This document shows positions 2,978-34,412 of a DNA stretch of 34,412 bases, in pieces. This DNA comes from Lachnospiraceae bacterium (GTDB lineage: Bacteria > Bacillota > Clostridia > Lachnospirales > Lachnospiraceae), in contig JAFVDW010000024.1 in assembly GCA_017478245.1 (NCBI GenBank), forward strand, positions 1-34,412, written 5' to 3'. Under the pieces are notes generated by a model. The model saw only the letters and a program-made list of their open reading frames with translations, had not been told where the DNA came from and made no database searches. The stretch's first letter is position 1. Each line of letters opens with the position of its first letter. A program made the position numbers and the translations under genes.

Positions 2978-4612
2978 ATGCCTATCACGGAGATTTTGGA
3001 GAAAAATGCCAAAGAGTATGCACAGGATGTATGTCTGGTGGAAATCAATCCTGACATTCAGGAGAAGCGCAGAGTGACTTGGCGGGACTATGAGTTGATC
3101 CAGCCGGATGCCCGTCATCATTATCGCAGAGAGATCACCTGGCATGTATTCAATGAAAAGGCAAATCGAGTTGCGAATTTGCTTCTTGGCCGAGGTGTGC
3201 AGAAGGGAGACAAGGTTGCAATTCTGATGATGAATTGTCTGGAATGGCTGCCGATTTATTTTGGTATACTGAAGACCGGTGCGTTGGCAGTTCCTATGAA
3301 TTTTCGTTTTGATGCACAGGAAATAAAATACTGTCTGGAGCTTTCCGAGACGGATGTGTTGATTTTCGGACCGGAATTTGTGGGGCGTATTGAAGAAATT
3401 GTCGATGAGATTGACGAGAAGAGGATTCTCTTTTATGTGGGGGGAGATTGCCCTACCTTTGCAGAGGATTATGACAAGCTTGCAGCCAACTGTTCTTCTC
3501 TGTCTCCGGACATTCAGCTAGAGGATTCTGATGATGCTGCGATTTATTTTTCTTCCGGTACAACAGGCTTTCCGAAGGCGATTCTGCACAATCATGAGAG
3601 CTTGATGCATGCGGCAAAGGTTGAGCAGAATCATCACAGCCAGACCAAGGATGATGTGTTTTTGTGCATTCCGCCTCTGTATCACACCGGAGCAAAGATG
3701 CACTGGTTTGGAAGCTTTCTGACCGGCGGCAAGGCAGTCCTGTTAAAAGGTGTTACACCCAAAACTATTTTGGAGACAGTATCCAACGAAGGCTGTACCA
3801 TTGTGTGGCTGCTGGTTCCCTGGGCGCAGGATATCCTGCTTGCTCTGGATAGAGGTGAGCTTAAATTGGAGGATTACAAACTGGATCAGTGGCGCTTGAT
3901 GCACATTGGCGCGCAACCGGTACCACAGAGCCTGATTAAGAGATGGAAGACATATTTCCCGAACCATCAATATGACACGAATTATGGACTCAGCGAGTCT
4001 ATTGGACCGGGTTGTGTGCATCTGGGTGTAGAGAATATTCATAAAGTGGGAGCAATCGGCATTCCGGGCTTTGGCTGGGAGGCGAAAATTGTAGATTCCG
4101 AAGGCAGGGAAGTGGCACAGGGCGATGTGGGCGAGCTGATTGTCAAGGGGCCGGGTGTCATGACCTGCTATTACAATGATGAGGAGGCAACGGCGGAGAC
4201 CTTGAAGGATGGATGGCTGTATACGGGAGATATGGCGGAGCAGGATGAGGATGGCTTCATCTATCTGGTGGACCGTAAAAAGGATGTCATTATCAGCGGT
4301 GGTGAGAATATTTACCCTGTACAGATAGAGAATTATTTAAGTAAGCATCCGAAGATTAAGGATGTGGCGGTGATTGGACTGGCAGATTTCAGATTAGGAG
4401 AGATATCCGCCGCTATTATTGAACTGAAGCCGGACACGGAGTGTACGGAGGAGGAAATCAATGAGTTTTGCAAGGAACTTCCCCGCTACAAAAGACCCAG
4501 GAAGGTGATTTTTACGCAGGTACCCAGAAATGCCACCGGAAAGATTGAAAAGCCGAAGCTTCGTGAGATGTACAATAGTGTGAATCTGGTGGAAGCACAG
4601 AATATGGCGTAA
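2978..4612 (+). CDS. AMP-forming acyl-CoA synthetase/ligase (ANL superfamily)
   Basis: Activates a carboxylic acid to acyl-AMP and then acyl-CoA. The 544-residue length fits the family. Visible motifs are the A3 P-loop FSSGTTGFPKA (from about residue 191), the A5 region YGLSESIG, the A7 motif GWLYTGDMA, the hinge DRKKDVIISGGENIYP (from residue 432), and the C-terminal catalytic Lys in NATGKIEKPKLRE (K522). There is no membrane segment. Its place directly behind iorAB suggests an aryl acid such as indoleacetate or phenylacetate, or running in reverse to make ATP from aryl-acetyl-CoA; this is inference, and medium-chain acids are the alternative. An SD (AAAGAAGAAAGATAAGAGG region) precedes the ATG. 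Confidence 0.9.
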   Translation: MPITEILEKNAKEYAQDVCLVEINPDIQEKRRVTWRDYELIQPDARHHYRREITWHVFNEKANRVANLLLGRGVQKGDKVAILMMNCLEWLPIYFGILKTGALAVPMNFRFDAQEIKYCLELSETDVLIFGPEFVGRIEEIVDEIDEKRILFYVGGDCPTFAEDYDKLAANCSSLSPDIQLEDSDDAAIYFSSGTTGFPKAILHNHESLMHAAKVEQNHHSQTKDDVFLCIPPLYHTGAKMHWFGSFLTGGKAVLLKGVTPKTILETVSNEGCTIVWLLVPWAQDILLALDRGELKLEDYKLDQWRLMHIGAQPVPQSLIKRWKTYFPNHQYDTNYGLSESIGPGCVHLGVENIHKVGAIGIPGFGWEAKIVDSEGREVAQGDVGELIVKGPGVMTCYYNDEEATAETLKDGWLYTGDMAEQDEDGFIYLVDRKKDVIISGGENIYPVQIENYLSKHPKIKDVAVIGLADFRLGEISAAIIELKPDTECTEEEINEFCKELPRYKRPRKVIFTQVPRNATGKIEKPKLREMYNSVNLVEAQNMA

Positions 4613-4624
4613 AGGAATAGGTAC

Positions 4625-5308
4625 ATGAAATTAAGGGCGTTTATCCCGCATTATATGCCCAATGGAATCGTTTTGACGGCATATGGATTATTGGCTTGCT
4701 TTAAACCATCCGTCAAAACGGTTCAGAATAATGCGGAGTGGAACAGCAGATTACTTGGAGATATGTGGCGGCACCTGCTAGTCAATGAGTCAGGCTTTAT
4801 AGAGTGTCAGGCAGATTGGAAGGATGTTCGCTTCGGAAAAAAAGGAGTAATAGCAAAGTCAGGCTGTGGAATTATAGCCACTGGTAACGCGTTAGCTGCA
4901 TTGGAGAAACGAGACGTGGGAGCTTCGGCTATGGTGGAGTTGATCAGTGTGTATGAGCGGCGGGGAGCGGCACTGGGAGGAAAATTCGGTGTGTCTCCAA
5001 GAGCGATTGCCAGGTATTTCCGTGAATTGGGGTACGAGGTCTCCTTGCTTCACAGCAGGAATCCTCAAAAAATCAATCAATTAGGACAAAATAGTGACGC
5101 AATCATAGCAGTGGTCTATAATGATGCAGATGACATTATGGAGCAGTTGCATACGGTGTGTGTCACAAAAGAGAAAGGGAATTATTTTCTGCACAATGCC
5201 GGTGGGACGTCCCCAGATATTGGCTACAATAACCTACAGGAGGGGTTAGAGCACATCTCAAAAAAAAGAGTGCTTCCCATTGCCGTGATTGGAATTCAAT
5301 CGAGATAA
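4625..5308 (+). CDS. C39-like (papain-fold) peptidase domain protein
   Basis: A 227-residue protein resembling bacterial C39-like cysteine peptidases. The pattern is a QADW stretch, FGKKGVIAKSGCGIIATGNAL with the putative nucleophile Cys81, then LHTVCVT with His176, then LHNAGG with an Asn near residue 190, giving a plausible Cys-His-Asn triad. The N-terminus (GIVLTAYGLLACF) is mildly hydrophobic but is not a clear signal peptide, so cytoplasmic or non-classical location is possible. It starts only 12 bases after the ligase stop and may be in the same transcript, although its role with aryl-acid enzymes is unclear. The substrate is unknown. Confidence 0.65.
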   Translation: MKLRAFIPHYMPNGIVLTAYGLLACFKPSVKTVQNNAEWNSRLLGDMWRHLLVNESGFIECQADWKDVRFGKKGVIAKSGCGIIATGNALAALEKRDVGASAMVELISVYERRGAALGGKFGVSPRAIARYFRELGYEVSLLHSRNPQKINQLGQNSDAIIAVVYNDADDIMEQLHTVCVTKEKGNYFLHNAGGTSPDIGYNNLQEGLEHISKKRVLPIAVIGIQSR

Positions 5309-5331
5309 GCTTTTGATAAGGGACAGGGTGT

Positions 5332-5372
5332 AAGGACTTTGTGGCAAAGAGATAGTCTGTTACAAGGTCCTT
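5332..5372 (+). terminator. Putative terminator of the ior operon
   Basis: An imperfect inverted repeat (AAGGACTTTGT / ACAAGGTCCTT, one G-T wobble, arms 5332-5342 and 5362-5372) lies 23 bases after the last CDS of the run. The T tract after it is short (TTT), so termination efficiency is uncertain. Confidence 0.4.
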
Positions 5373-5514
5373 TCAGATGATATTCTAAAACTGTATGGAA
5401 TATTTTGAATTTTCTGTTGACATTTCGAACATGTTCTGGTAATATTATCACATCTGAAGTGTTCAATTATTCGTTTTTTCGTGAATCAGGCATTTCGCCA
5501 GATAACTCAGATGA

Positions 5515-5721
5515 AAGGATAAGTGGCGGGAACTTGTACCCAGAGGATTCCGCCAGTGCGCAAAGGAGGAATTGTTTGAGTCGGGTCATGACTTTACAGA
5601 TTTAGAGCCGGAAACGGTGCAGACTTATGTGGAATTAATCAGGGGAGGATTGCTGTCTTTACAAGATGCAGTAGAGAAACTTGGGATGCAGGAAGAGATA
5701 CTCAAAGAGAGGTTACAGTAA
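5515..5721 (+). pseudogene. C-terminal remnant of an unrecognised protein
   Basis: A frame open from 5515 to the TAA at 5719-5721 reads like genuine protein (KWRELVPRGF, then EELFESGHDF, LIRGGLLSLQDAVEKLGM and a Lys/Glu end). It has no ATG, and upstream of 5515 the frame is closed. The ending, a short helix-turn-helix-like LLSLQDAVEKLGM segment, resembles the tails of small proteins common in Clostridia, for example Rpn/PD-(D/E)XK relatives. It is most likely the 3' end of a deleted gene; the family assignment is tentative. Confidence 0.4.
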
Positions 5722-5748
5722 TCTGACAGTAAATCTGAGCGTTTTTGT

Positions 5749-5780
5749 ATAATAGGAAATTTGACGGAATTTCCTATTAT
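5749..5780. repeat. Perfect 13-bp inverted repeat, 6-base loop
   Basis: ATAATAGGAAATT and AATTTCCTATTAT flank TGACGG. Neither side has a T tract, so it is not a canonical terminator. The left arm overlaps a TATAAT (5748-5753), with a CTGACA 19 bases upstream, so it could equally be an operator at a weak promoter. Confidence 0.5.
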
Positions 5781-5787
5781 AGAGCAA

Positions 5788-5817
5788 ACAGCCCCCGGCA
5801 TGGATGTCAGGGACTGT
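5788..5817 (-). terminator. Possible typA terminator hairpin
   Basis: On the minus strand ACAGTCCC can pair with GGGGCTGT (one wobble) about 30 bases after the typA stop, followed only by TTTG. This is a weak candidate. Confidence 0.35.
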
Positions 5818-5844
5818 CTGTTGGTTGAAGCAGGAGACTTGTTA

Positions 5845-7677
5845 TTATTTTTTCATTGCTGCACGTTTTCTCATGGTAGGATCCAGGATTTTTTTGCGTA
5901 TCCGCAAACTCGTAGGTGTTACTTCCAGCAATTCATCTGTCTCAATGAAGTCCAAAGCCTGTTCCAAAGAAAGAACCTTGGGGGGTGTCAGACGAAGGGC
6001 TTCGTCCGCGCTGGAGGAACGAGTATTCGTCAACTGCTTTTTCTTGCATACATTGATCTCAATATCTTCGCTGCGACCGGTCTGCCCCACCACCATGCCG
6101 GAGTATACTTTTTCACCGGGACCGATGAAAAGTGTGCCGCGTTCCTGAGCATTGTAGAGACCATAGGTGATGGCTTCTCCTGCTTCGAAAGCAATCAGAG
6201 AGCCAAGCTTACGATACTGGATATCACCCTTGTAAGGACCGTAGCCGTCAAATACGGTATTTAAAATACCATTCCCCTTTGTGTCTGTCATGAATTCGCC
6301 ACGATAGCCGATCAAACCGCGGGAGGGAATAGAGAATTCTAAGCGGGTGTAGGTGCCTCCGGAGATAGAGCCCATGTTGCGGAGCTCTCCTTTGCGCTGA
6401 CCAAGCTTTTCAATAACAGCTCCGGAATACTCGTTGGGTACATCAATATATGCCAACTCCATGGGTTCTAAAAGCTTGCCGTTCTCATCGTGATGATAAA
6501 GCACCTCCGCTTTACTTACTGCAAATTCAAAACCTTCACGGCGCATATTTTCAATCAACACGGATAAATGCAGTTCCCCGCGACCGGACACCTTAAAACA
6601 GTCTGCTGCGTCGGTTTCCTCAACGCGAAGGGACACATCTGTGTTCAATTCACGGAACAATCTGTCGCGCAGATGCCGGCTGGTTACGAATTTTCCTTCC
6701 TGACCGGCTAAGGGTGAATCGTTTACCATAAACTGCATGGCAATGGTGGGCTCGCTGATTTTTTGGAAAGGAATAGGTACCACATTGTCAGGAGAGCAGA
6801 GGGTATCTCCAATGTGGATATCACTGATACCGGAGATCGCAACGATAGCTCCAATGGATGCCTCCTTTACCTCTACTTTATTTAAGCCGTCAAATTCATA
6901 TAATTTGCTCACCTTCACTTTAATCTGTTTGTCTGCCTCATGGTGATTGCAGATGACAACATCCTGATTTACGCGGATAGTACCATTATCCACTTTCCCT
7001 ACACCGATTCGACCTACATATTCGTTATAATCAATCGTGCTGATCAGGACTTGTGTGCCGGCATCAGGGTCCCCTTCGGGCGCAGGGATGTAGTCAAGAA
7101 TCGTCTCAAAGAGAGGCTCCATATCAGTTCCTTGTTCTTCTGCGTCCATGGAAGCGGTACCTGCTTTGGCAGAGGCGAAGACGAAGGGGCAGTCTAACTG
7201 GGCATCATCGGCGTCCAATTCCAAAAAGAGTTCCAGTACCTCATCCACTACCTCATCAGGTCTTGCTTCCGGACGGTCAATTTTGTTAATACACACGATG
7301 ACAGGCAGCTTCAGTTCCAAAGCCTTGCGCAGAACAAATTTTGTCTGTGGCATGGCACCCTCAAAGGCATCCACCACCAGAATCACTCCGTTCACCATTT
7401 TCAATACACGCTCTACTTCTCCGCCAAAGTCCGCGTGACCGGGAGTGTCGATGATGTTAATCTTGGTATTTTTATACATAACAGCGGTATTTTTAGATAG
7501 AATAGTGATTCCGCGTTCCCGCTCAATATCGTTGGAGTCCATGACGCGTTCAGCAATCTCCTGATTCTCGCGGAATACGCCGCTTTGCTTCAAAAGTTCA
7601 TCTACCAGCGTGGTTTTGCCGTGGTCTTCATGGGCGATGATAGCAACATTCCTAATATTTTCTCTTTTTTGTTTCAT
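5845..7677 (-). CDS. typA: Ribosome-associated GTPase TypA/BipA
   Basis: A translational GTPase of the EF-G/LepA class that binds the 70S ribosome and is linked to ribosome assembly and stress or cold growth. The 610-residue length matches the family. In order: G1 P-loop in [17 protein letters not shown] (residues 13-29), switch I with ERGITI, G3 [16 protein letters not shown]4 NKID, then the beta-barrel domain and the BipA C-terminal domain with [15 protein letters not shown]. Odd point: position 17 is Glu where the family has Val (AHVDHGKTT). The SD AAGGAG lies upstream of the ATG on the minus strand. It is monocistronic by context. Confidence 0.97.
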
Positions 7678-25329: not shown

Positions 25330-27078
25330 ATGAAAAAAGGACAGGTATATGAAGGAGTCGTGGAGAGGGTAGACTTTCCCAACAAAGGAATCGTGAAGGT
25401 TGGGGAGGAAACCGTTATCGTGAAAAACAGCCTGCCCGGTCAGAAGATTAAGCTCGGAGTAAATAAAGTAAGAAAAGGGAAGGCGGAAGGCCGTCTGTTG
25501 GAGGTGATAGAAAAATCACCTTTGGAGACAGGTCGGACGTGTTCCCATTTTGGGTTGTGCGGAGGATGTACTTACTTATCTCTTCCCTATGAGGAACAGC
25601 TTCACATTAAGGAAGAACAGGTAAAAAAGCTGTTGGATGGTGTATTGCAGGCACAGAAGCAATCCTATATCTGGGAAGGCATCAAGGGAAGTCCGAGAGC
25701 GTATTCTTATCGCAACAAAATGGAGTTTTCCTTTGGCGATGAATACAAAGAGGGACCGCTTTCTCTTGGTATGCACAAGAGAGGCAGTTTTTATGATGTG
25801 GTGACTGTGGATACATGTGAGATTGTGGATGCTGATTATCGGCTGATTCTGAAGACTGTGCTGGGATATTTTGCGGAAACAAATGTGACTTATTTTCACA
25901 GGCTGACGCATGTGGGGTACTTACGTCATCTGTTGGTGCGCAAGGCATCCCGGACAGGAGAGATTCTGGTGGCACTGGTGACTACCTCACAGTACCCTTT
26001 TAAACAATCCGGTGAAGGTGCGCCGGAGGATTGGGAACCTGCACGGAGAGAATTGATAGACGGCTTTCGGACTTGTTTGCTTGCGTTGGAACAGGAAGGC
26101 ACACTACAGGGCAGTTTTGCGGGAATTTTACATATCACCAATGATTCTATGGCAGATGTAGTCAAGAGTGACCGGACAGATGTGCTCTATGGCAAAGAAT
26201 ATTTTTATGAGGAATTGTTGGGGCTTCGATTTAAGATTTCCACCTTTTCCTTTTTTCAGACCAATTCTTATGGGGCAGAGGTGTTATACAGCACAGCTCG
26301 CGAATATGTGGGAGAACTGGGCGGGGCAGATAAGACGGTATTTGATTTGTACAGCGGTACCGGGACGATTGCGCAGTTGATGGCTCCGGTGGCGGGTAAG
26401 GTTATTGGCGTCGAAATTGTGGAGGAGGCTGTGGAGGCAGCCAAGCGCAATGCCCGAGACAATGGCTTGACGAATTGTGAGTTTATAGCCGGAGATGTGT
26501 TGAAGGTGTTGGATGAGCTGGAGGATAAGCCGGATATGATCATTTTGGACCCCCCAAGAGACGGAATTCATCCCAAGGCGCTGCCCAAGATCATTGCTTA
26601 TGGGGTGGAACGAATCGTCTATATCTCCTGTAAGCCCACCAGTCTGGTGCGGGATTTGGAGGTATTTCTGGAAAATGGGTATCGTGTGGAGAAAGCTGTG
26701 GCGGTAGATCAGTTCCCGTGGACGGCAAATGTGGAGACGGTAGTACTGCTTTCCCAACAAAAGCCGGATACCACAATCAGCGTAAAAGTGGAGTTTGGCG
26801 AGGGGGAGGGCAAAGTGCCACTTGATAAAATAGCCGAAAGAGCGGAGAACTACAAGCCAAAAGAACGAGTTACCTACAAAATGATAAAGGAGTATATAGA
26901 AGCTAAATACGGTTTTAAGGTACATACGGCATATATCGCAGAGGTAAAGCGAGATTTGGGATTGCCGATGTATGATGCTCCCAATGCGGTTGAGGAATTA
27001 AAACAGCCGAGAAAGCATCCAACGGCGGAAAAAGTGGAAGCGATAAAGGATGCATTGAAACGTTTTGGAATTATTTGA
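25330..27078 (+). CDS. rlmD: 23S rRNA (uracil-5-)-methyltransferase, RumA/RlmD family, with C-terminal extension
   Basis: SAM-dependent m5U methyltransferase. Residues 1-60 are a TRAM domain. [4Fe-4S] ligands are C71, C77, C80 and C163, close to their positions in E. coli RumA. The Rossmann domain has VFDLYSGTGTIAQLMAP, motif IV DPPRDG (from D407) and the catalytic ISCKPTSLVRD (C434). At 582 residues it is longer than the roughly 450 of the core enzyme. After the catalytic domain ends (TVVLLSQQ, about 475) there is an extension of about 105 residues with KERVTYKMIKEYIEAKYGF and IAEVKRDLGLPMYDAPN. The exact uridine target (e.g. 747 or 1939) cannot be told. Confidence 0.92.
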   Translation: MKKGQVYEGVVERVDFPNKGIVKVGEETVIVKNSLPGQKIKLGVNKVRKGKAEGRLLEVIEKSPLETGRTCSHFGLCGGCTYLSLPYEEQLHIKEEQVKKLLDGVLQAQKQSYIWEGIKGSPRAYSYRNKMEFSFGDEYKEGPLSLGMHKRGSFYDVVTVDTCEIVDADYRLILKTVLGYFAETNVTYFHRLTHVGYLRHLLVRKASRTGEILVALVTTSQYPFKQSGEGAPEDWEPARRELIDGFRTCLLALEQEGTLQGSFAGILHITNDSMADVVKSDRTDVLYGKEYFYEELLGLRFKISTFSFFQTNSYGAEVLYSTAREYVGELGGADKTVFDLYSGTGTIAQLMAPVAGKVIGVEIVEEAVEAAKRNARDNGLTNCEFIAGDVLKVLDELEDKPDMIILDPPRDGIHPKALPKIIAYGVERIVYISCKPTSLVRDLEVFLENGYRVEKAVAVDQFPWTANVETVVLLSQQKPDTTISVKVEFGEGEGKVPLDKIAERAENYKPKERVTYKMIKEYIEAKYGFKVHTAYIAEVKRDLGLPMYDAPNAVEELKQPRKHPTAEKVEAIKDALKRFGII

Positions 27079-27114: not shown

Positions 27115-27950
27115 ATGAAAACCATGTTTAGCAAAGAAGAGATTGAAAAATATTCTCAAAGGTCATCTCAATGTATGGAAAAATGTATAATTGAGATATG
27201 TGGAGATATAGATGAGAACAACAGAGTTGAGTTGAATATGGATTTTGAAGAAAATGCAGTTTATTGTGGTAATTGTTTTGATGGCTTTTATAAAGACTGG
27301 TCAATGAAAAAGTATATGCAGGCTATGTATGAAATCTGCGAAGATATGGACGGTGTTTGGGTAAGTAATTATGAATATGTAGATGATCACCCTGCGTTCA
27401 GAGCATTTTTTATTGCTTTTCTGTTTGATATAGATGAGTTCAAATACTATGAAGAAGTATATAAATATTGTCATGATTTTTGTGACCAGTTAGATATTTT
27501 GGTGGAAAGAAAGATTAAAGGGTGTTATTGGGATAAGATATTTGAAGTAGATGAGATGGCATTTTGCAGGCTGTACTTAACACCTTTCTTTAAGAAAATC
27601 GGATTTGAACAGGTTATATTCAATCATGGAAACAAGGAGTTCGGAAAAGACTATATATTGGTAAAACAGAGTATTATGGAGTTCAAGCTAAGGCAGGAAA
27701 TATGAGTGGCTCAGCCACTTCCAATATCAATGAGATTGTTAATCAAATAAACACGGGATTTAATGTTCCGTATAGACTGGTAAATGGAGAACCCGTGTAT
27801 ATTTCTAAAATGATAATAGCTGTTTCTGGAAATTTCACAGATAATGCACAAGCAATTATTCATAATTCTGTTGATAGATATAAATTTACGAATACAATTT
27901 TTCTTTCTAAGAAAGAGTTAGAAAATCATCAAGTAATGATAGGCAATTAG
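27115..27950 (+). pseudogene. PD-(D/E)XK-like (Q-x-K) nuclease gene, frameshifted
   Basis: Two overlapping frames make one protein. The first (27115-27705) ends LTPFFKKIGFEQVIFNHG then EFGKDYI (D179). In the other frame the sequence continues as EYYGVQAKAGNMSGSATSN, followed by NEIVNQINTGFNVPYRL, YISKMIIAVSGNFTDNA and a stop at 27950. GKD followed by VQAK is the D...QxK signature of Mrr/type IV-like nucleases, and this motif is split by the shift. Adding one A to the AAAA at 27663-27666 would restore a single frame of about 278 codons. The ATG has only a distant SD. It is AT-rich like the genes after it. Either a decayed nuclease or an assembly error. Confidence 0.7.
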
Positions 27951-28238: not shown

Positions 28239-28268
28239 GCGTTCTCTGGTATTGTTTACATAGTTGCC

Positions 28269-28832
28269 TTGACTGCCCCGACCATTCAGGAATCAGAACT
28301 GCAGGCGGCAGTAATACAGGCCATCAACCTGACGCTTGGCGACAGGGACATCATAATGGCTACGCTACAGGAAAACGTGGAAACAGTCATTCTGCGGGAA
28401 GATGAATCCTTGGCAGAAAACATTGAGGTGAGACTGGAGGAATTGCAAAAGGAATTGCAAAAGGAATTGCTTCGGAGGGCAAATTCCAAAAAGGATTATA
28501 ACAGTATAGCTGATGAGATTTACCGCTTGCGGGATTTGAAACAGAATGCTTTGGTGGAGAGCGCCGAGAGGGAGGGCTTGAAAAAGCGGATTGCAGAGAT
28601 GCGGGAATTTCTGGACAGCCAGTCAACGGAAGTCTTGGAATACGATGAGTAGCTTGTACGGCGGCTAGTTGAAAAGGTTACCGTTTATGATAGAAAGATA
28701 GCAGTGGAATTTAAATCCGGTGTGGAGATAGAAGTGGATAGATGGGTATGGCATGGAGGCATCCTGAAGGTTCAGATGAGCTTGTGGGATGCCTTTTTTC
28801 GTGGGGAAATTAGTGTGGATATCGGGGAATAG
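28269..28832 (+). pseudogene. C-terminal remnant of a large serine recombinase
   Basis: The frame reads TAPTIQESELQAAVIQAINL, then a coiled-coil segment (LEELQKELQKELLRRANSKK), YRLRDLKQNALVE, REFLDSQSTEVLEYDE and a TAG at 28650. Reading through gives LVRRLVEKVTVYDRKIAVEF and KSGVEIEVDR. This is the C-terminal zinc-ribbon/coiled-coil part of large serine (resolvase/integrase-type) recombinases. The catalytic resolvase domain is absent, and the TAG probably replaces a CAG (Gln) codon. About 130-190 residues remain of roughly 500-550. A duplicated GGAATTGCAAAA-like unit at about 28440-28462 makes the KELQKEL repeat. It is a scar of a mobile element. Confidence 0.85.
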
Positions 28833-28887
28833 AGGATTGTATTTAGCAACCATGCGGTTTATAATGAAAATGTCTGGAGGAGTGAAA

Positions 28888-29124
28888 ATGACAACATCTA
28901 ATATGGTTCGAGAACTTTGTGAAAAAATGAATATCAGCATCTCAGAGCTTGCTCGGAGGATTGGGCAGTTACCACAGAACTTTAATAAGAAGCTGAAACG
29001 TGGCACAGTGAGCCTCGAGGAATTACTTGCTATTGCAAATGTGCTTGAAATATTGTTTGAGCAAGGTTTTACATTACCGGACGGACAAAGTATAAAAATA
29101 TATAGTGACAAATATGGAGGATGA
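28888..29124 (+). CDS. Small XRE-family (Cro/C1) HTH regulator
   Basis: 78 residues. The ATG at 28888 follows TGGAGGAG with a suitable gap; an in-frame extension to 28789 overlaps the recombinase remnant and lacks support. The protein is mostly one HTH: MVRELCEKMNISISELARRIG, then LPQNFNKKLKRGTVSLEELL and IANVLEILFEQGF. It ends 4 bases before the next gene and begins the four-gene operon that ends with the STAND ATPase, so it probably controls that operon's expression. Confidence 0.85.
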   Translation: MTTSNMVRELCEKMNISISELARRIGQLPQNFNKKLKRGTVSLEELLAIANVLEILFEQGFTLPDGQSIKIYSDKYGG

Positions 29125-29128
29125 AAGG

Positions 29129-29818
29129 ATGAAAAGCGAATTACTTCCATCTGTGCAAGCTGTGGCAGAATTTATGCCGCCAAAAAAGAATGGCATATTT
29201 GAAAAATCTATGGAGGTGGCTAGACTACTTCTTGAACATGAGCCTGTTTCAATAATTGCGCATACGGTTGATGGTGCGATACAAAATTACGGTATGGTAA
29301 AAGAAATGAAATATCGCGCTAAGGCGATAAAATATGTAACTCATTTAGAAGAAGTAAGAATAAATGCTCAAGTTGAAATGGCGAGACTACAAAATCAAAA
29401 TATGGCCATGAGATTATATATAGACAGAAGTTTTCAACAGTCATTGGACTATATGGAAGATGCATATTTAAGTCAGTCTCATAGGATAGCCCAGACTAAA
29501 AGGCAAATGATTCAAGAAGTTAATAATCAAGTTCAAAGGCACTTTGGAAATATAGATAGGCGATATATAGAAACTGTTCGGGAAAACGAATTAAAGTGTG
29601 CGATGTATAGAGATTTTGTTAACCAGTCTGTAAAAGATGGGGTCACGCAGTCTGATATTACAATGTTCATTGCTAAGAAGCTTGTTGACAATATGGATAG
29701 GTATAATAGTAGAGCAGTTACAAGTGTTTGCAATGTACTCACAGAAATGATGCGGCAAAATTCAAGAGTCTCATTTGAGGAATATTTAAGCCTTGAAAAA
29801 CGGTTAAAGAGATTATGA
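29129..29818 (+). CDS. Unrecognised 229-residue helical protein, STAND operon
   Basis: I do not recognise this family. The ATG at 29129 has GGAGG 8 bases upstream. The sequence is soluble and mainly helical: PSVQAVAEFMPPKKNGIFEKS at the N-terminus, a central Gln/Arg/Met-rich helix (YVTHLEEVRINAQVEMARLQ, then MRLYIDRSFQQSLDYMED), and a C-terminal part with VKDGVTQSDITMFIAKKLVDN. There is no signal peptide or membrane segment. It sits between the XRE regulator (4-base gap) and the membrane-anchored coiled-coil gene (14-base gap), so it is part of one transcript with the Avs-like gene. A structural or adaptor role is possible but unproven. Confidence 0.75.
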   Translation: MKSELLPSVQAVAEFMPPKKNGIFEKSMEVARLLLEHEPVSIIAHTVDGAIQNYGMVKEMKYRAKAIKYVTHLEEVRINAQVEMARLQNQNMAMRLYIDRSFQQSLDYMEDAYLSQSHRIAQTKRQMIQEVNNQVQRHFGNIDRRYIETVRENELKCAMYRDFVNQSVKDGVTQSDITMFIAKKLVDNMDRYNSRAVTSVCNVLTEMMRQNSRVSFEEYLSLEKRLKRL

Positions 29819-29832
29819 CGGGATGGTGAAAA

Positions 29833-30570
29833 ATGAATTCGTATATCCGTTTAGGTATAGTGGGTGTAGTAGTTTTTATAATTATTATACTTATATTTAG
29901 TATTTCAAATAGAAAACGAAAAAGTAAAAGAAACAGTAATTACCATAGTATACGAAGTAAAGAATATAGAACGGAGATATATAATAATACACCGGAAGAA
30001 TATCAGCAAAGTATAAGATATTTGTATAATAGGCTGGAGCAGTTAGACGAAGTAATAGTTAGAAATAATAGAAGTCTAAATGCTCAATCAGAACAAGCAG
30101 TAAAGGATATTTTGAGAAGAGCTGCTGAAGCTGAAAAAGAAATAAATCAATATTGGGAATTGAGCAAAAGGAAAGCAAATTTTTATTATTACATAGGTCT
30201 TCATTATACATCGTTTACGTTGGCAGATAAATTAACCGAAGAGCTTGAGTCACTAAGAAAAATTAATGGCATGCTATCTGATGTGATAAATAAAACTCAG
30301 TCTCAGATTAACGGATTAAAAGGGAAAATTAATGATGCCAATACGGTGGCTAATATAGGGCAAGTAAAAAGAGAGCATCAAGAATTATGCAGAAAATGCG
30401 ATGCGCTTAGAAAGACGAGAAAAATATGCGCTGAACAAATGGAGGATTGTAAAAAGCGTCGCGATAGGCAGAATGTAATCACAGCACAAAGAAGAGATTA
30501 TATCGGTAAGAATTTTGGAAAAAAGGGAAAACAATGGCGTAATCGTATTATGGCAAAGCACAAGAGGTGA
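29833..30570 (+). CDS. Membrane-anchored coiled-coil protein, STAND operon
   Basis: 245 residues with one N-terminal transmembrane helix (IRLGIVGVVVFIIIILIFSI, residues about 5-24) followed by a strongly basic stop-transfer stretch (NRKRKSKRN), so the bulk lies in the cytoplasm. Residues about 55-215 are long amphipathic helices likely to form coiled coils (YLYNRLEQLDEVIVRNNRSL, then EELESLRKINGMLSDVINKT), and the end is basic. There is no enzymatic motif. Its stop codon (TGA 30568-30570) lies inside the SD region of the next gene, implying coupled translation with the STAND protein. Family unknown. Confidence 0.78.
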   Translation: MNSYIRLGIVGVVVFIIIILIFSISNRKRKSKRNSNYHSIRSKEYRTEIYNNTPEEYQQSIRYLYNRLEQLDEVIVRNNRSLNAQSEQAVKDILRRAAEAEKEINQYWELSKRKANFYYYIGLHYTSFTLADKLTEELESLRKINGMLSDVINKTQSQINGLKGKINDANTVANIGQVKREHQELCRKCDALRKTRKICAEQMEDCKKRRDRQNVITAQRRDYIGKNFGKKGKQWRNRIMAKHKR

Positions 30571-30574
30571 TTTT

Positions 30575-33500
30575 ATGAATTGGCAGCATTTTCAAACATA
30601 TAACGAAGCAGCAACTCGGGCATTTGAAGCAATGTGCAATCAATTATTTGAATTATGGATTGATAGGGAATATAAAGATACTAAGAAATCCTTTGTCGTA
30701 GTAAATGGAGCAGGTGGTGACGGGGGAGTAGAGTCTTATGCTACACTTGTAACTGGTGAAGAAATAGGAGTACAGGCGAAATGGTTCCCGGATAGTATCA
30801 CTACATCACAGTTTAGTCAAATAAAAAGCTCTATTTTAACAGCTTTAGAGGTGCACCCCAAATTGACAAAATATATAGTGTGTGTGCCTAGAGACTTGTC
30901 AAATTTAAAAAAGGGAAAAGACGGAAAAATAGTTCAAGAAACTGAGTATCTGAAATGGGACAAGATCGTCACAGACATTAAAAGTAAATATCCTAACAGT
31001 GATATTATTTTTTGGGGTGACCACGTTTTGGAGACTCAATTGCAATATGCAGAGGCAGCAGGAGTTAGGCGGTATTGGTTTGAAAAGGAAGAAATCACAA
31101 AAGAAAATTTACAATACTCATTTGACAAACAAAAGAATGGGTGGTTGGTTCAACGATATATTTCTGTTTTACATAATCAAGGAAAAATTCATAAAGAGAT
31201 CAGTAATTTTTTAGGTATATCGGAAGAGTGTATTTCTCTATTAGGAGAATTAAAGTACATAGAAAAATTGCTCCGAATGCTAATTGATGAGATAGGCGTT
31301 TTGTGTGACTTACTACATGAAAAAAATATTTATTTAGATAAGATAGAACAACTACAAGAATTATGTGAAAGAGTAGGATGTCAGTTAGATGAGTTGTTAG
31401 GAATAAAAAATGCCTTTCAATGTGAAAACAAATTAGATCAATGGAACGAGTATGTTTTAACTTATAATGAATTAGGGAACCTGGAAGAATGGATGGATAA
31501 GTGTTCGCACGGGGATAGTTTTTGCCATTTTTGGGATGTCAAAAAGATAATAGAAAAGCTTTATAATGTTAATATGCCTCAGTTAATAGAAAAACTGAAG
31601 CAGAGGTGTAATTATGATAAGCTAGTTATAATAGGAGGACAAGGAACAGGAAAAACGCATGGGATTGCAAATGTAGCTGAAACGCAGTTGGAACAAAATT
31701 ATCATATACCTATTCTGATTCAAGCAAAGAGCGTTTCACCTCAAGATGAATGGAAGGATATGATAATTCGTGTATTAGGACTGTCTCAAGGGTGGAGCGA
31801 AGAAGAATTGTGGTCTGCGTTAGAGGCGTTATCATATAGAAATGAGATTAATAATTCCTTGTCGCAAAATGAGATTCGTATTGTTCCTAAAGTAGTAATT
31901 TGCATTGATGGAGTTGATGAAATTAAACCATATACTCGTTGGAATGATCGAATAAGTCAAGTAAATGCAATTACTTCTAGGCACCAAAGAATTAGATTTT
32001 GTTTTACGGGCCGTCCGTATGCATTCGATCGTAAAAGGATGATATCGGAACAAAATCTAAAAAGAGTTGTTTTATCGGATGACGGAGATGTTCCTGTAAG
32101 AACGATATACGATAAATATACTCAATATTATAATGTTGACGATGAAGGGGCAAAATGGCTTCGTTATTCTATAAGTACGCCGTATGCTTTAAAATTAGTG
32201 TGTGAGCTTTATGAAGGAAAACACATTGGACAAATTGGAAAGTCGGATGTTACAGTTTCTAATTTGTTACGTGAAAAGTTTGATAAATTAAATGAGGAAT
32301 TTAAAACTATAGCAGGGCTTGAAGAAAATACAAGGGATCAGATTGTAAAAATAGTATTGATAAAAATTAATGAGATATTTGAAACCCAAAATGAGGCTAC
32401 GCAAGCACAAGTTAAATCGGTTTTGAGAGGATTAGATATTTACCGTTATTTAGATGAACCGGGATTGGATAAAATTCTGGATTTTTTAGAGAAGCATTCT
32501 TTTCTGCAATCATATCAAAAATGTGCTAAAAGTTTTTTCGAAGAGAATGAAACAATTTATTTTTTAGGTGTGCAGCCAGTATATGATTATTTGAAAGCTC
32601 TTCGACTATTTGAAAGGAGCGAATATACAGAGGATTTGAACTTGGATGCTCAGGTTTTGGAGAATACTGGAGCACTCCAAATGTACTCTGTAATGGTTTT
32701 GGAAAACTGTGGAAAAATATTGTGGAATAATAAATCTTGTCAAGAACACTTGTATGAAGAAGATTTGTTCAGTGTCAGCGCATTTGCTTTGATAAATGTA
32801 AATGAAGATATTTCTGGCAAATATGCAGAGTGGCTAAGAGAATTGATGGGTGGAAATGCATACGCTTTATCCTTAACAGTTAATAAAATAGTTTTTCCGC
32901 TTGCTAGAGACAGAGAGCATCCTTTGGGTACCATGCTTCTTGATCAGTGTTTAAGCGCATTTGGCAAATCGGCTGATAGGGATGTTATTTGGTCAGTTCC
33001 ATCAAAACTTGATGCAAATGATGATTATCCATGGATTCGTCTTGACGATATAGAATACATGAATGAATCATATAAACTGGAAAATGCAGATTGTTTTGAT
33101 GGAATGCCATTAGTTTGGGCATGGGGACTAACTTCTGTTGATAATAAGCAAAGAACAATGATTCGCCAGGAAATCACAAAATGGGGAATTGAACAGCCAG
33201 AAGAATTTTATAAGCTATTTGAACATTTTGTAGGTGTTAATGATATTCAGGCTAAGACGGATATTTTTGCGATTACAATGGCAGTTACACATGTGTGTAG
33301 GAAAAATCATTCATATTTGAAATTAATCTCAAAATGGATAGATCGTAATATTTTTCAATATGGAAAAATAAAAAATATGCACAATGCGGCAATTAGATAT
33401 TATGCGAGAGCAATTATGGAATGTGCATATTCAGAAGGGATAATTACTAGTACACAGATTAATAAATGTCGTCCGCCTTATAGAATCGACACATCACTTT

Positions 33501-34412
33501 TACCCTTTGCTCCAGAAGCAACAACTGGAACAAGGATGGGAGGGTATAAAACAATGGATTACGATTTAGCCAGATATGTGTTATGTGATCCGCTAAATCG
33601 AATGTTTTTTTCAAATAGAAATTATAAGAGAGAGATTGATAAAATTGTAATAAGATATGGTAGAAAATATCAATTACAGGATTTGACAAGTGAAAAGTGG
33701 ATTTTAGGCAGTGCTTTTGGACAAATAAAGAAGGCCGGTTGGTGTGAGGACATCTTTTATGGAAAACCAAATGGAGGGAAATCAGGGGAAATTTTGGGCC
33801 TAGATATTGCAATAAGCAGAAAATATGGGTCTGCAACACATGGAAGCATGAGTCGGATTATGACAATTGCAGAAAAATATACATGGTGTGCAAAAATGGA
33901 ATTGCTAGGATACTTGGCTGATAGGATACCATATTATGGATATGAATATATTGATGATTATGGTCAGTTAGAAGATTATGTTAATCCGTATCAAGAACTT
34001 TGCCAAATTGATGTAGAAAAGGTAATGGAAGAAACAGACTGGCTTTTACCGGAAGAGTTGACGCCATCCATTAAAGGCTGTGGCTATGATAAAGATGGTA
34101 TTCAAAAGTGGCTTGTTGAATCAACTATACCAACTTTTGAAAAGTGGATTAAAATTCAAAAGGGAACCGTGACATTGTTTGGAGCACATTTTGTAAGTAA
34201 TGAGATCCAAGGTGTTACAACTATGATGTGGATATCTTCTGGTCTTGTACGCAAAGGGACAATATCATCACTTATTAAAAAGTTAAAAGATAGAGACTTT
34301 GCTATGGAATTAGTAAATGCTGTAGACTTTCTTGCTTATCCGACATCAGATTGTTATGTTTCACCTTTAGAAGTGTGCTGGTTTAACTGGAAGGATGAAC
34401 ACGGTTCAGATA
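30575..34412 (+). CDS. Avs-like STAND NTPase with N-terminal Mrr-like nuclease (3' partial)
   Basis: A giant gene whose frame is open for 1279 codons and runs off the window. The ATG follows AGAGGTGA. Residues 1 to about 160 are an Mrr-like PD-(D/E)XK domain: NQLFELWIDREY, VVVNGAGGDGGVE (D49) and GVQAKWF (Q67-x-K69). A helical linker follows. The ATPase has Walker A GGQGTGKT (354-361), Walker B VVICIDGVDEI (D445, then D448/E449) and a sensor-like FTGRP (R480), typical of STAND/NACHT proteins. The rest (about 520-1279) is a long sensor-type region with IRYYARAIMECA, DYDLARYVLCDP and AEKYTWCAKM. In Avs proteins such a region binds a phage protein and triggers oligomerisation and nuclease activity. 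That this one does so is inference. Confidence 0.88.
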   Translation, partial: MNWQHFQTYNEAATRAFEAMCNQLFELWIDREYKDTKKSFVVVNGAGGDGGVESYATLVTGEEIGVQAKWFPDSITTSQFSQIKSSILTALEVHPKLTKYIVCVPRDLSNLKKGKDGKIVQETEYLKWDKIVTDIKSKYPNSDIIFWGDHVLETQLQYAEAAGVRRYWFEKEEITKENLQYSFDKQKNGWLVQRYISVLHNQGKIHKEISNFLGISEECISLLGELKYIEKLLRMLIDEIGVLCDLLHEKNIYLDKIEQLQELCERVGCQLDELLGIKNAFQCENKLDQWNEYVLTYNELGNLEEWMDKCSHGDSFCHFWDVKKIIEKLYNVNMPQLIEKLKQRCNYDKLVIIGGQGTGKTHGIANVAETQLEQNYHIPILIQAKSVSPQDEWKDMIIRVLGLSQGWSEEELWSALEALSYRNEINNSLSQNEIRIVPKVVICIDGVDEIKPYTRWNDRISQVNAITSRHQRIRFCFTGRPYAFDRKRMISEQNLKRVVLSDDGDVPVRTIYDKYTQYYNVDDEGAKWLRYSISTPYALKLVCELYEGKHIGQIGKSDVTVSNLLREKFDKLNEEFKTIAGLEENTRDQIVKIVLIKINEIFETQNEATQAQVKSVLRGLDIYRYLDEPGLDKILDFLEKHSFLQSYQKCAKSFFEENETIYFLGVQPVYDYLKALRLFERSEYTEDLNLDAQVLENTGALQMYSVMVLENCGKILWNNKSCQEHLYEEDLFSVSAFALINVNEDISGKYAEWLRELMGGNAYALSLTVNKIVFPLARDREHPLGTMLLDQCLSAFGKSADRDVIWSVPSKLDANDDYPWIRLDDIEYMNESYKLENADCFDGMPLVWAWGLTSVDNKQRTMIRQEITKWGIEQPEEFYKLFEHFVGVNDIQAKTDIFAITMAVTHVCRKNHSYLKLISKWIDRNIFQYGKIKNMHNAAIRYYARAIMECAYSEGIITSTQINKCRPPYRIDTSLLPFAPEATTGTRMGGYKTMDYDLARYVLCDPLNRMFFSNRNYKREIDKIVIRYGRKYQLQDLTSEKWILGSAFGQIKKAGWCEDIFYGKPNGGKSGEILGLDIAISRKYGSATHGSMSRIMTIAEKYTWCAKMELLGYLADRIPYYGYEYIDDYGQLEDYVNPYQELCQIDVEKVMEETDWLLPEELTPSIKGCGYDKDGIQKWLVESTIPTFEKWIKIQKGTVTLFGAHFVSNEIQGVTTMMWISSGLVRKGTISSLIKKLKDRDFAMELVNAVDFLAYPTSDCYVSPLEVCWFNWKDEHGSD

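Follow-up and report, generated by a model that had tools for sequence, protein, structure and literature searches.

Phages and satellites of the P2/P4 type are known for defence hotspots, where variable defence genes occupy a set position within a mobile element. The locus described here shares that property but belongs to another element family, lies beside serine recombinases and has a leader gene and promoter of its own. It occupies the final 5.5 kb of a 34,412-nucleotide stretch from a Lachnospiraceae bacterium (GenBank contig JAFVDW010000024.1, hereafter the window), which is the entire contig G000:C57 of a 2.49-Mb genome assembly in 119 contigs. Four same-strand genes make up the block: p1, an XRE-type leader; p2; p3; and, last, the gene for an Avs-type STAND nuclease. 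We consider it likely that serine-recombinase prophages resembling Phi 1207.3 and Phi m46.1 have an exchangeable cargo slot at their end and that this block is one of its loads, the order, spacing, conserved promoter, cargo variety and homology breaks of the slot being shown by comparison of related loci (numbered L below).

In Phi 1207.3 and Phi m46.1 a lysis cassette is followed by serine recombinases at the right end (PMC4260502), and streptococcal integrative and conjugative elements (ICEs) with a triplet of serine integrases are also known, for which coding sequences lying between these integrase genes and the target gene were noted (PMC4701971). The slot elements resemble both in carrying serine recombinases at the right end after a lysis cassette, but the accessible parts of those descriptions contain neither the terminator, promoter and XRE leader nor a defence load. 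Shared control modules that precede unrelated immune operons are represented by CapW/BrxR, CapH+CapP and CapK+CapS (PMC13373217, accessible in part); the XRE leader is likewise one module common to unrelated immune operons, but it is a lone 78-aa protein, is tied to a recombinase end and also precedes drug-resistance genes, and no damage sensor was seen with it, though none was searched for. The diDNases found in genomic islands beside helix-turn-helix genes (PMC11706625) are different from the present slot as described in the accessible text. A literature search that mostly excluded subscription papers found no description of the recombinase-terminator-promoter-XRE-cargo combination.

Architecture of the slot

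The recurring order in the compared sequences is recombinase, terminator, promoter with palindrome, XRE gene, and cargo close behind. Viral contigs contain 24 loci with a p1 relative, and in 18 of these a large serine recombinase ends 129-161 bp before the start of the XRE gene; the distance is 142-164 bp in L116, L117 and L148-L151. In the window it is 145 bp, measured from a decayed recombinase of which the final 155 residues are covered by a relic with a stop (Table 1), and which accounts for the “mobile-element debris” of an initial annotation of this DNA. Intact recombinases and prophage genes in cis, absent from the window, are present where the same four genes occur complete, in viral contig L005 and Lachnospiraceae genome contig L018 (UBA1683), which we count as one copy because they are identical over 10,251 bp. 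This complete copy lies behind tail, holin and endolysin genes and a large-small-large series of serine recombinases.

Most of 22 aligned upstream regions contain a hairpin and T run followed by TTG-N8-AACCA-N3-GGTTTATAAT, with mismatches at individual bases in some rows. In this predicted leader promoter a -35-like TTG is separated from TATAAT by 17 bp, and this spacer contains an AACC-N4-GGTT palindrome. The window has the exact pattern, which gave no match in 100 shuffles, and at each of the seven sites folded the hairpin is more stable than in shuffled sequence (z -2.6 to -6.6). Both features were found by comparison; a consensus scan of positions 28600-30600 had missed them because the -35 element consists of TTG alone and the scan does not allow for so long a hairpin. 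The position of the palindrome in the promoter spacer suggests self-repression by the XRE protein, which would bind there and keep both its own promoter and the cargo low.

The XRE leader and its loads

Relatives of p1 at E<=1e-10 occur in 12 of 146 genomes of the order, the window's included, and eight regions were read from the 11 others. In these regions and in viral contigs the XRE gene mostly stands without a STAND gene and heads other operons. In the eight regions it leads to a trypsin-like peptidase and GmrSD (L116), a membrane coiled-coil protein (L117, by eye), an OLD-like ATPase (L118), a small gene followed by a Tox-GHH protein (L119 and, by eye, L123), a GmrSD-like protein (L120), or a FokI-like enzyme together with what by eye is a methylase (L121 and, by eye, L122). 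Among the loads in viral contigs are Gabija (GajA 3.6e-203, GajB 2.5e-215) together with a PDC-S49/KAP ATPase in L126, Lamassu in L128 (LmuA 4e-33, LmuB 9.2e-186), an NsnA-like protein in L130 (1.7e-54) and a DUF4062 protein that weakly matches NACHT in L131; PDC-S45 with GmrSD is a further load of the same leader, and the viral contigs also contain several unknowns. A Ruminococcus phage (L151) carries a Pycsar cyclase (1.4e-38) behind the leader. The loads extend beyond defence, since an aminoglycoside-resistance cluster follows the recombinases and XRE leader in a Streptococcus prophage (L150) and an Enterococcus casseliflavus plasmid (L149). In plasmids, p1 relatives are present in 305 records, 296 of them from Enterococcus, of which two records were read.

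One load recurs behind p1 in viral contigs L134, L135, L136, L137 and L140, beginning with a protein of 226-229 aa. In L134 the first three cargo proteins have no Pfam match at E<=0.01, and the 328- and 335-aa ones have no PADLOC match, making this load a candidate undescribed system. In L144 (2361-2468) and L145 (2401-2508) a p1-type XRE gene is interrupted after its 33rd codon, where a prophage adjoins it; the serine recombinase of that prophage, on the opposite strand, ends at the junction. The first 98 bases in L144 are those of the intact XRE gene of L119, and the leader gene seems here to serve another phage as attachment site.

Exchange of loads

Between elements with different cargo, comparison shows that homology breaks in or near the XRE gene. 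L018 and L126 share 92% identity from their recombinases up to position +183 of XRE, after which one continues into Avs and the other into Gabija; L130 and L131 are 93% identical to XRE +214, and L150 and L129 are 96% identical to +230. The reverse case is given by L137 and L140, which are 96% identical from -175 onward and have recombinases only 68% alike. Within the XRE gene the last third tracks the cargo, with paired values of 0.95 and 0.97 for window and L018 and of 0.59 and 0.31 for window and L126. DNA identity between window and L018 is 98.1% in p2, 98.0% in p3 and 96.6% in the Avs part, against 89% in XRE and 70% at the recombinase end. Together with the pattern in the last third of XRE, these identities suggest that p2-p3-Avs moved as one load with the break inside XRE. 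Loads may be swapped through recombination between the conserved flanks, and the window's own load would now be stranded near a rumA-like gene, as its recombinase has already decayed.

Ordinary accretion in a defence island, by which the four genes would be together by chance and the XRE gene would be a common mobile regulator, can draw on the XRE relatives that lead restriction genes without an adjacent upstream recombinase (L121, L122) and on the lack of such a recombinase in six of the eight chromosomal regions. We nevertheless hold it to be improbable, as chance would not be expected to produce the near-constant spacing in 18 viral loci, the conserved promoter and palindrome, the hairpin at every folded site, or breaks at XRE between loads.

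The Avs-type effector

Avs (AVAST) proteins have as their common plan an Mrr-like nuclease, a STAND NTPase and a long C-terminal region. The last gene of the block, nearest to Avs2, has this plan but differs in being the last gene of a cargo operon and in scoring below the NCBIfam Avs2 cut-off. The nuclease and STAND motifs named in the initial annotation are real and conserved across an alignment of 40 homologues, the window included and two Avs loci of <1200 aa left out. The nuclease residues G-x-G-G-D-G-G-[VI]-E and Q-x-K, which we take to form a PD-(D/E)XK Mrr-like motif, are present in all 40, as are the Walker A G-K-T and the Walker B D and E.

A full-length homologue of the truncated window gene has 1416 codons. 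The best PADLOC match of the window protein is Avs2 model PDLC02164 (E=2e-65), which reaches 1.2e-68 over residues 1-971 of the homologue. Against the NCBIfam Avs2 equivalog NF041813 the truncated protein scores 71.7 bits, with a curated cut-off of 1000, and it is therefore named Avs2-like rather than Avs2; NB-ARC and AAA_22 matches of the STAND region also fall below the Pfam cut-offs. The C-terminal half of the homologue has the terminase-bound Avs3 (8dgc) as its best match and shows the fold of an Avs C-terminal sensor. Nuclease, STAND and C-terminal features together support an Avs-type effector in the window. By analogy with Avs1-4, the C-terminal region may bind a conserved phage protein, possibly the large terminase, whereupon the STAND domain would assemble and the Mrr-like nuclease would cut DNA, stopping infection at the cell's cost.

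A second case of an Avs gene at a recombinase end is L046, where pieces of a large serine recombinase (4512-5921) are followed 79 bp behind by a 34% identical Avs gene starting at 6001.

Neighbours of the Avs gene

The three small genes were initially taken for dedicated partners of the nuclease. Such a four-gene system, in which XRE would control expression, p3 would tether the complex to the membrane and p2 would bridge or gate the STAND protein, could explain the tight gene spacing and the joint movement of p2, p3 and Avs between two elements that share just 70% DNA identity at the recombinase end. It could also draw on the strong conservation of p2 between window and L018, for which the ratio of nonsynonymous to synonymous substitution rates (dN/dS) is 0.04 from 13 changes (p3 0.35, Avs 0.19, all from few changes), on the likeness of p3 to a PADLOC family, and on the placing of Avs5 at membrane-associated sites (PMC12931631, accessible in part).

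The distribution of the genes speaks otherwise. Genome contigs were scanned with the Avs alignment, giving 83 loci of which 80 were kept, many matching only the N-terminal part of Avs; p1-p3 were searched in 91 loci including all 80, and neighbourhoods were read for 47 of the 80. L018 alone among the 80 has p1, p2 or p3 matches below E 0.1, the other 79 having none. The nearest relatives in the tree after window and L018 are L019 (74% identity) and L043 (65%), which lack all three small genes: at the DNA level they resemble the window only from the Avs gene onward (window 30564 and 30573), and the Avs gene is preceded in L019 by Tn554-type tyrosine-recombinase genes (by eye) and in L043 by a 1037-aa gene. 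More distantly, the 33% identical Avs of G435/L015 lies behind a 316-aa gene and one for a HEPN-type protein, a pair found again in L040, and in 15 of the 47 loci a same-strand gene of at least 70 aa ends within 60 bp of Avs, these genes belonging to several unrelated families.

The searches for p2 and p3 themselves point the same way. Profile searches gave no family for p2 at E<=0.001. Searched in 98 related genomes apart from that of the window, neither protein showed a credible relative (p2 at E<=0.001), and 391 further genomes of the order gave p2 matches of E 0.003-0.01 only, none credible. No credible relatives of p2 or p3 were found in plasmids, nor of p2 in phages, and in viral contigs they occur in the L005 contig only. 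With p1-p3 confined to L018 and unrelated neighbours elsewhere, the four genes are not a conserved system in the data searched; the XRE gene, moreover, belongs to the slot. The expectation that a true partner would seldom occur without a STAND gene fails for XRE, while p2 and p3 have been seen in one lineage only, always with this Avs. We regard a dedicated four-gene system as unlikely; obligate partnership was dropped as the leading explanation after the neighbourhoods of Avs relatives had been read. Since XRE relatives lead other defence systems and antibiotic-resistance genes, the neighbours in the window are probably slot-mates rather than fixed Avs partners, and operon order alone is poor ground for naming partner genes.

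Within the slot, p2 and p3 travel with this Avs and might be accessory to it, p3 for example tethering a complex to the membrane, or might form a separate small system. By eye, p3 has one N-terminal hydrophobic stretch followed by a coiled coil, and it matches positions 39-183 of the 186 in the PADLOC profile Unk_03 at 1.9e-9, a score in which coiled-coil bias may play a part. That p2 and p3 form a defence or toxin-type module of their own, placed ahead of an Avs able to act alone, is compatible with the slot and a real possibility, if somewhat less than an even one. Other loads stack systems in this way, as in L126 with its PDC-S49/KAP ATPase and Gabija, and close Avs relatives occur without p2-p3, the Unk_03 match of p3 being a further point for it; on the other side, no p2-p3 pair without Avs was found and both genes are rare in the collections searched.

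Generality of the slot

To see what else follows such recombinases, 80 of at least 560 confirmed stretches with recombinase relatives were kept, and 29 of the 80 with <400 bp downstream were left out. In 45 of the remaining 51 loci, with at least 400 bp downstream, an open reading frame (ORF) of at least 50 aa starts within 330 bp; the other six have none. The 45 first ORFs comprise nine ribbon-helix-helix-like, six DUF1413-like, five p1 and three PHD-like genes (family names other than p1 being presumed from the sequences), three of a 400-aa kind, two pairs and 15 singles; a few of these first ORFs (L198, L199, L208) may be spurious.

We lean slightly towards the broader reading that serine-recombinase prophages and related Bacillota elements carry a standard socket, made up of terminator, self-regulated promoter and leader, that exchanges defence and sometimes resistance loads, with XRE, ribbon-helix-helix-like, DUF1413-like and PHD-like leaders taking the same place in it. 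Several leader families at one place would imply that many undescribed defence genes, p2-p3 perhaps among them, could be read by position. A set position about 150 bp past the final serine recombinase, combined with the leader, would then lead to defence loads in Bacillota prophages even when their genes are not known beforehand; the spread of both phage defence and drug resistance would be linked to one slot, and the slot would be a concrete test case for how newly arrived defence genes stay silent until they are required.

Several observations weigh against the slot, in the window and more widely. XRE is found in only 5 of the 51 recombinase loci with readable downstream DNA, most others having other first genes, which makes it one leader among several. 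No recombinase lies directly upstream in six of the eight chromosomal p1 regions (L118-L123) or in 6 of the 24 viral loci. The exact promoter pattern has 19 matches in viral contigs, of which 13 stand before a p1-like gene at a distance of 72-107 bp from the recombinase upstream, but 11 of those 13 are in contigs that belong to the set from which the pattern was derived, leaving L236 and L240 as new support. The pattern alone is not specific, as L235, L238, L243, L247 and L248 fit neither feature, and at L232:10210-10238 (same contig as L154) it stands 97 bp behind a recombinase and no p1-like gene follows. Among 20 hand-picked further cargo proteins from 20 loci, 13 match PADLOC at 1e-5 or better, including IetS, MzaC, PDC-S11, PDC-S15 and HEC-05, a proportion that comes from a choice favouring large proteins and has no background control. 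Finally, the rumA-like neighbour of the window's block is no proof of element class, because the triplet elements on record insert in mutT, traG or hsdM, rumA being the target of single-integrase ICEs (PMC4701971, accessible in part).

Features of the window and minor observations

The ORFs of the block lie where they were first placed, with intergenic gaps of 4, 14 and 4 bases (Table 1), and the picture of an Avs-type STAND nuclease as last gene of a tight operon next to mobile DNA stands. The AT-rich setting is also borne out, G+C being 0.33-0.35 in the block against 0.44-0.51 before position 27000.

Table 1. Annotated features at the downstream end of the window
Feature	Position	Strand	Basis
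Serine recombinase relic (C-terminal part, large type), in-frame stop at 28650-28652	28266..28742	+	tblastn 55% to residues 372-526 of L005 recombinase
Terminator-like hairpin and T run, between recombinase relic and leader promoter	28755..28796	+	Fold -24 kcal/mol, z -3.3
Predicted leader promoter TTG-N8-AACCA-N3-GGTTTATAAT, AACC-N4-GGTT palindrome in spacer	28837..28865	+	Conserved among leaders; function inferred
p1, XRE-type leader gene, 78 aa	28888..29124	+	Pfam HTH_26 3.9e-10; relatives at equivalent place in other elements
p2, helical protein, 229 aa	29129..29818	+	Low-confidence all-helix model; 99% identical in L005
p3, N-terminally anchored coiled-coil protein, 245 aa	29833..30570	+	PADLOC Unk_03 1.9e-9; 96% identical in L006 (same viral contig as L005)
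Avs-type STAND nuclease, nearest Avs2, cut by contig end	30575..34412	+	PADLOC Avs2 2e-65; motifs; C-terminal fold of homologue

Upstream of the block lie the rumA-like rRNA methyltransferase gene (25330-27078, named by eye) and two adjoining ORFs (27115-27950) that by eye look like one nuclease gene split by a frameshift and have no family match at E<=0.01. A stretch directly after the Lamassu load (L128:9181-9495) is 33% identical to the 3' end of the window's rumA-like gene, and a second Avs locus (L050:968-2777) is also near a rumA-like gene. Proteins of 687-1037 aa belonging to one family occur within three genes upstream of Avs in L020, L029, L040, L043, L045 and L060. Downstream of the complete Avs copy (L018:11029-13009) are, by eye, transposase-like ORFs and a Vsr-like endonuclease gene.

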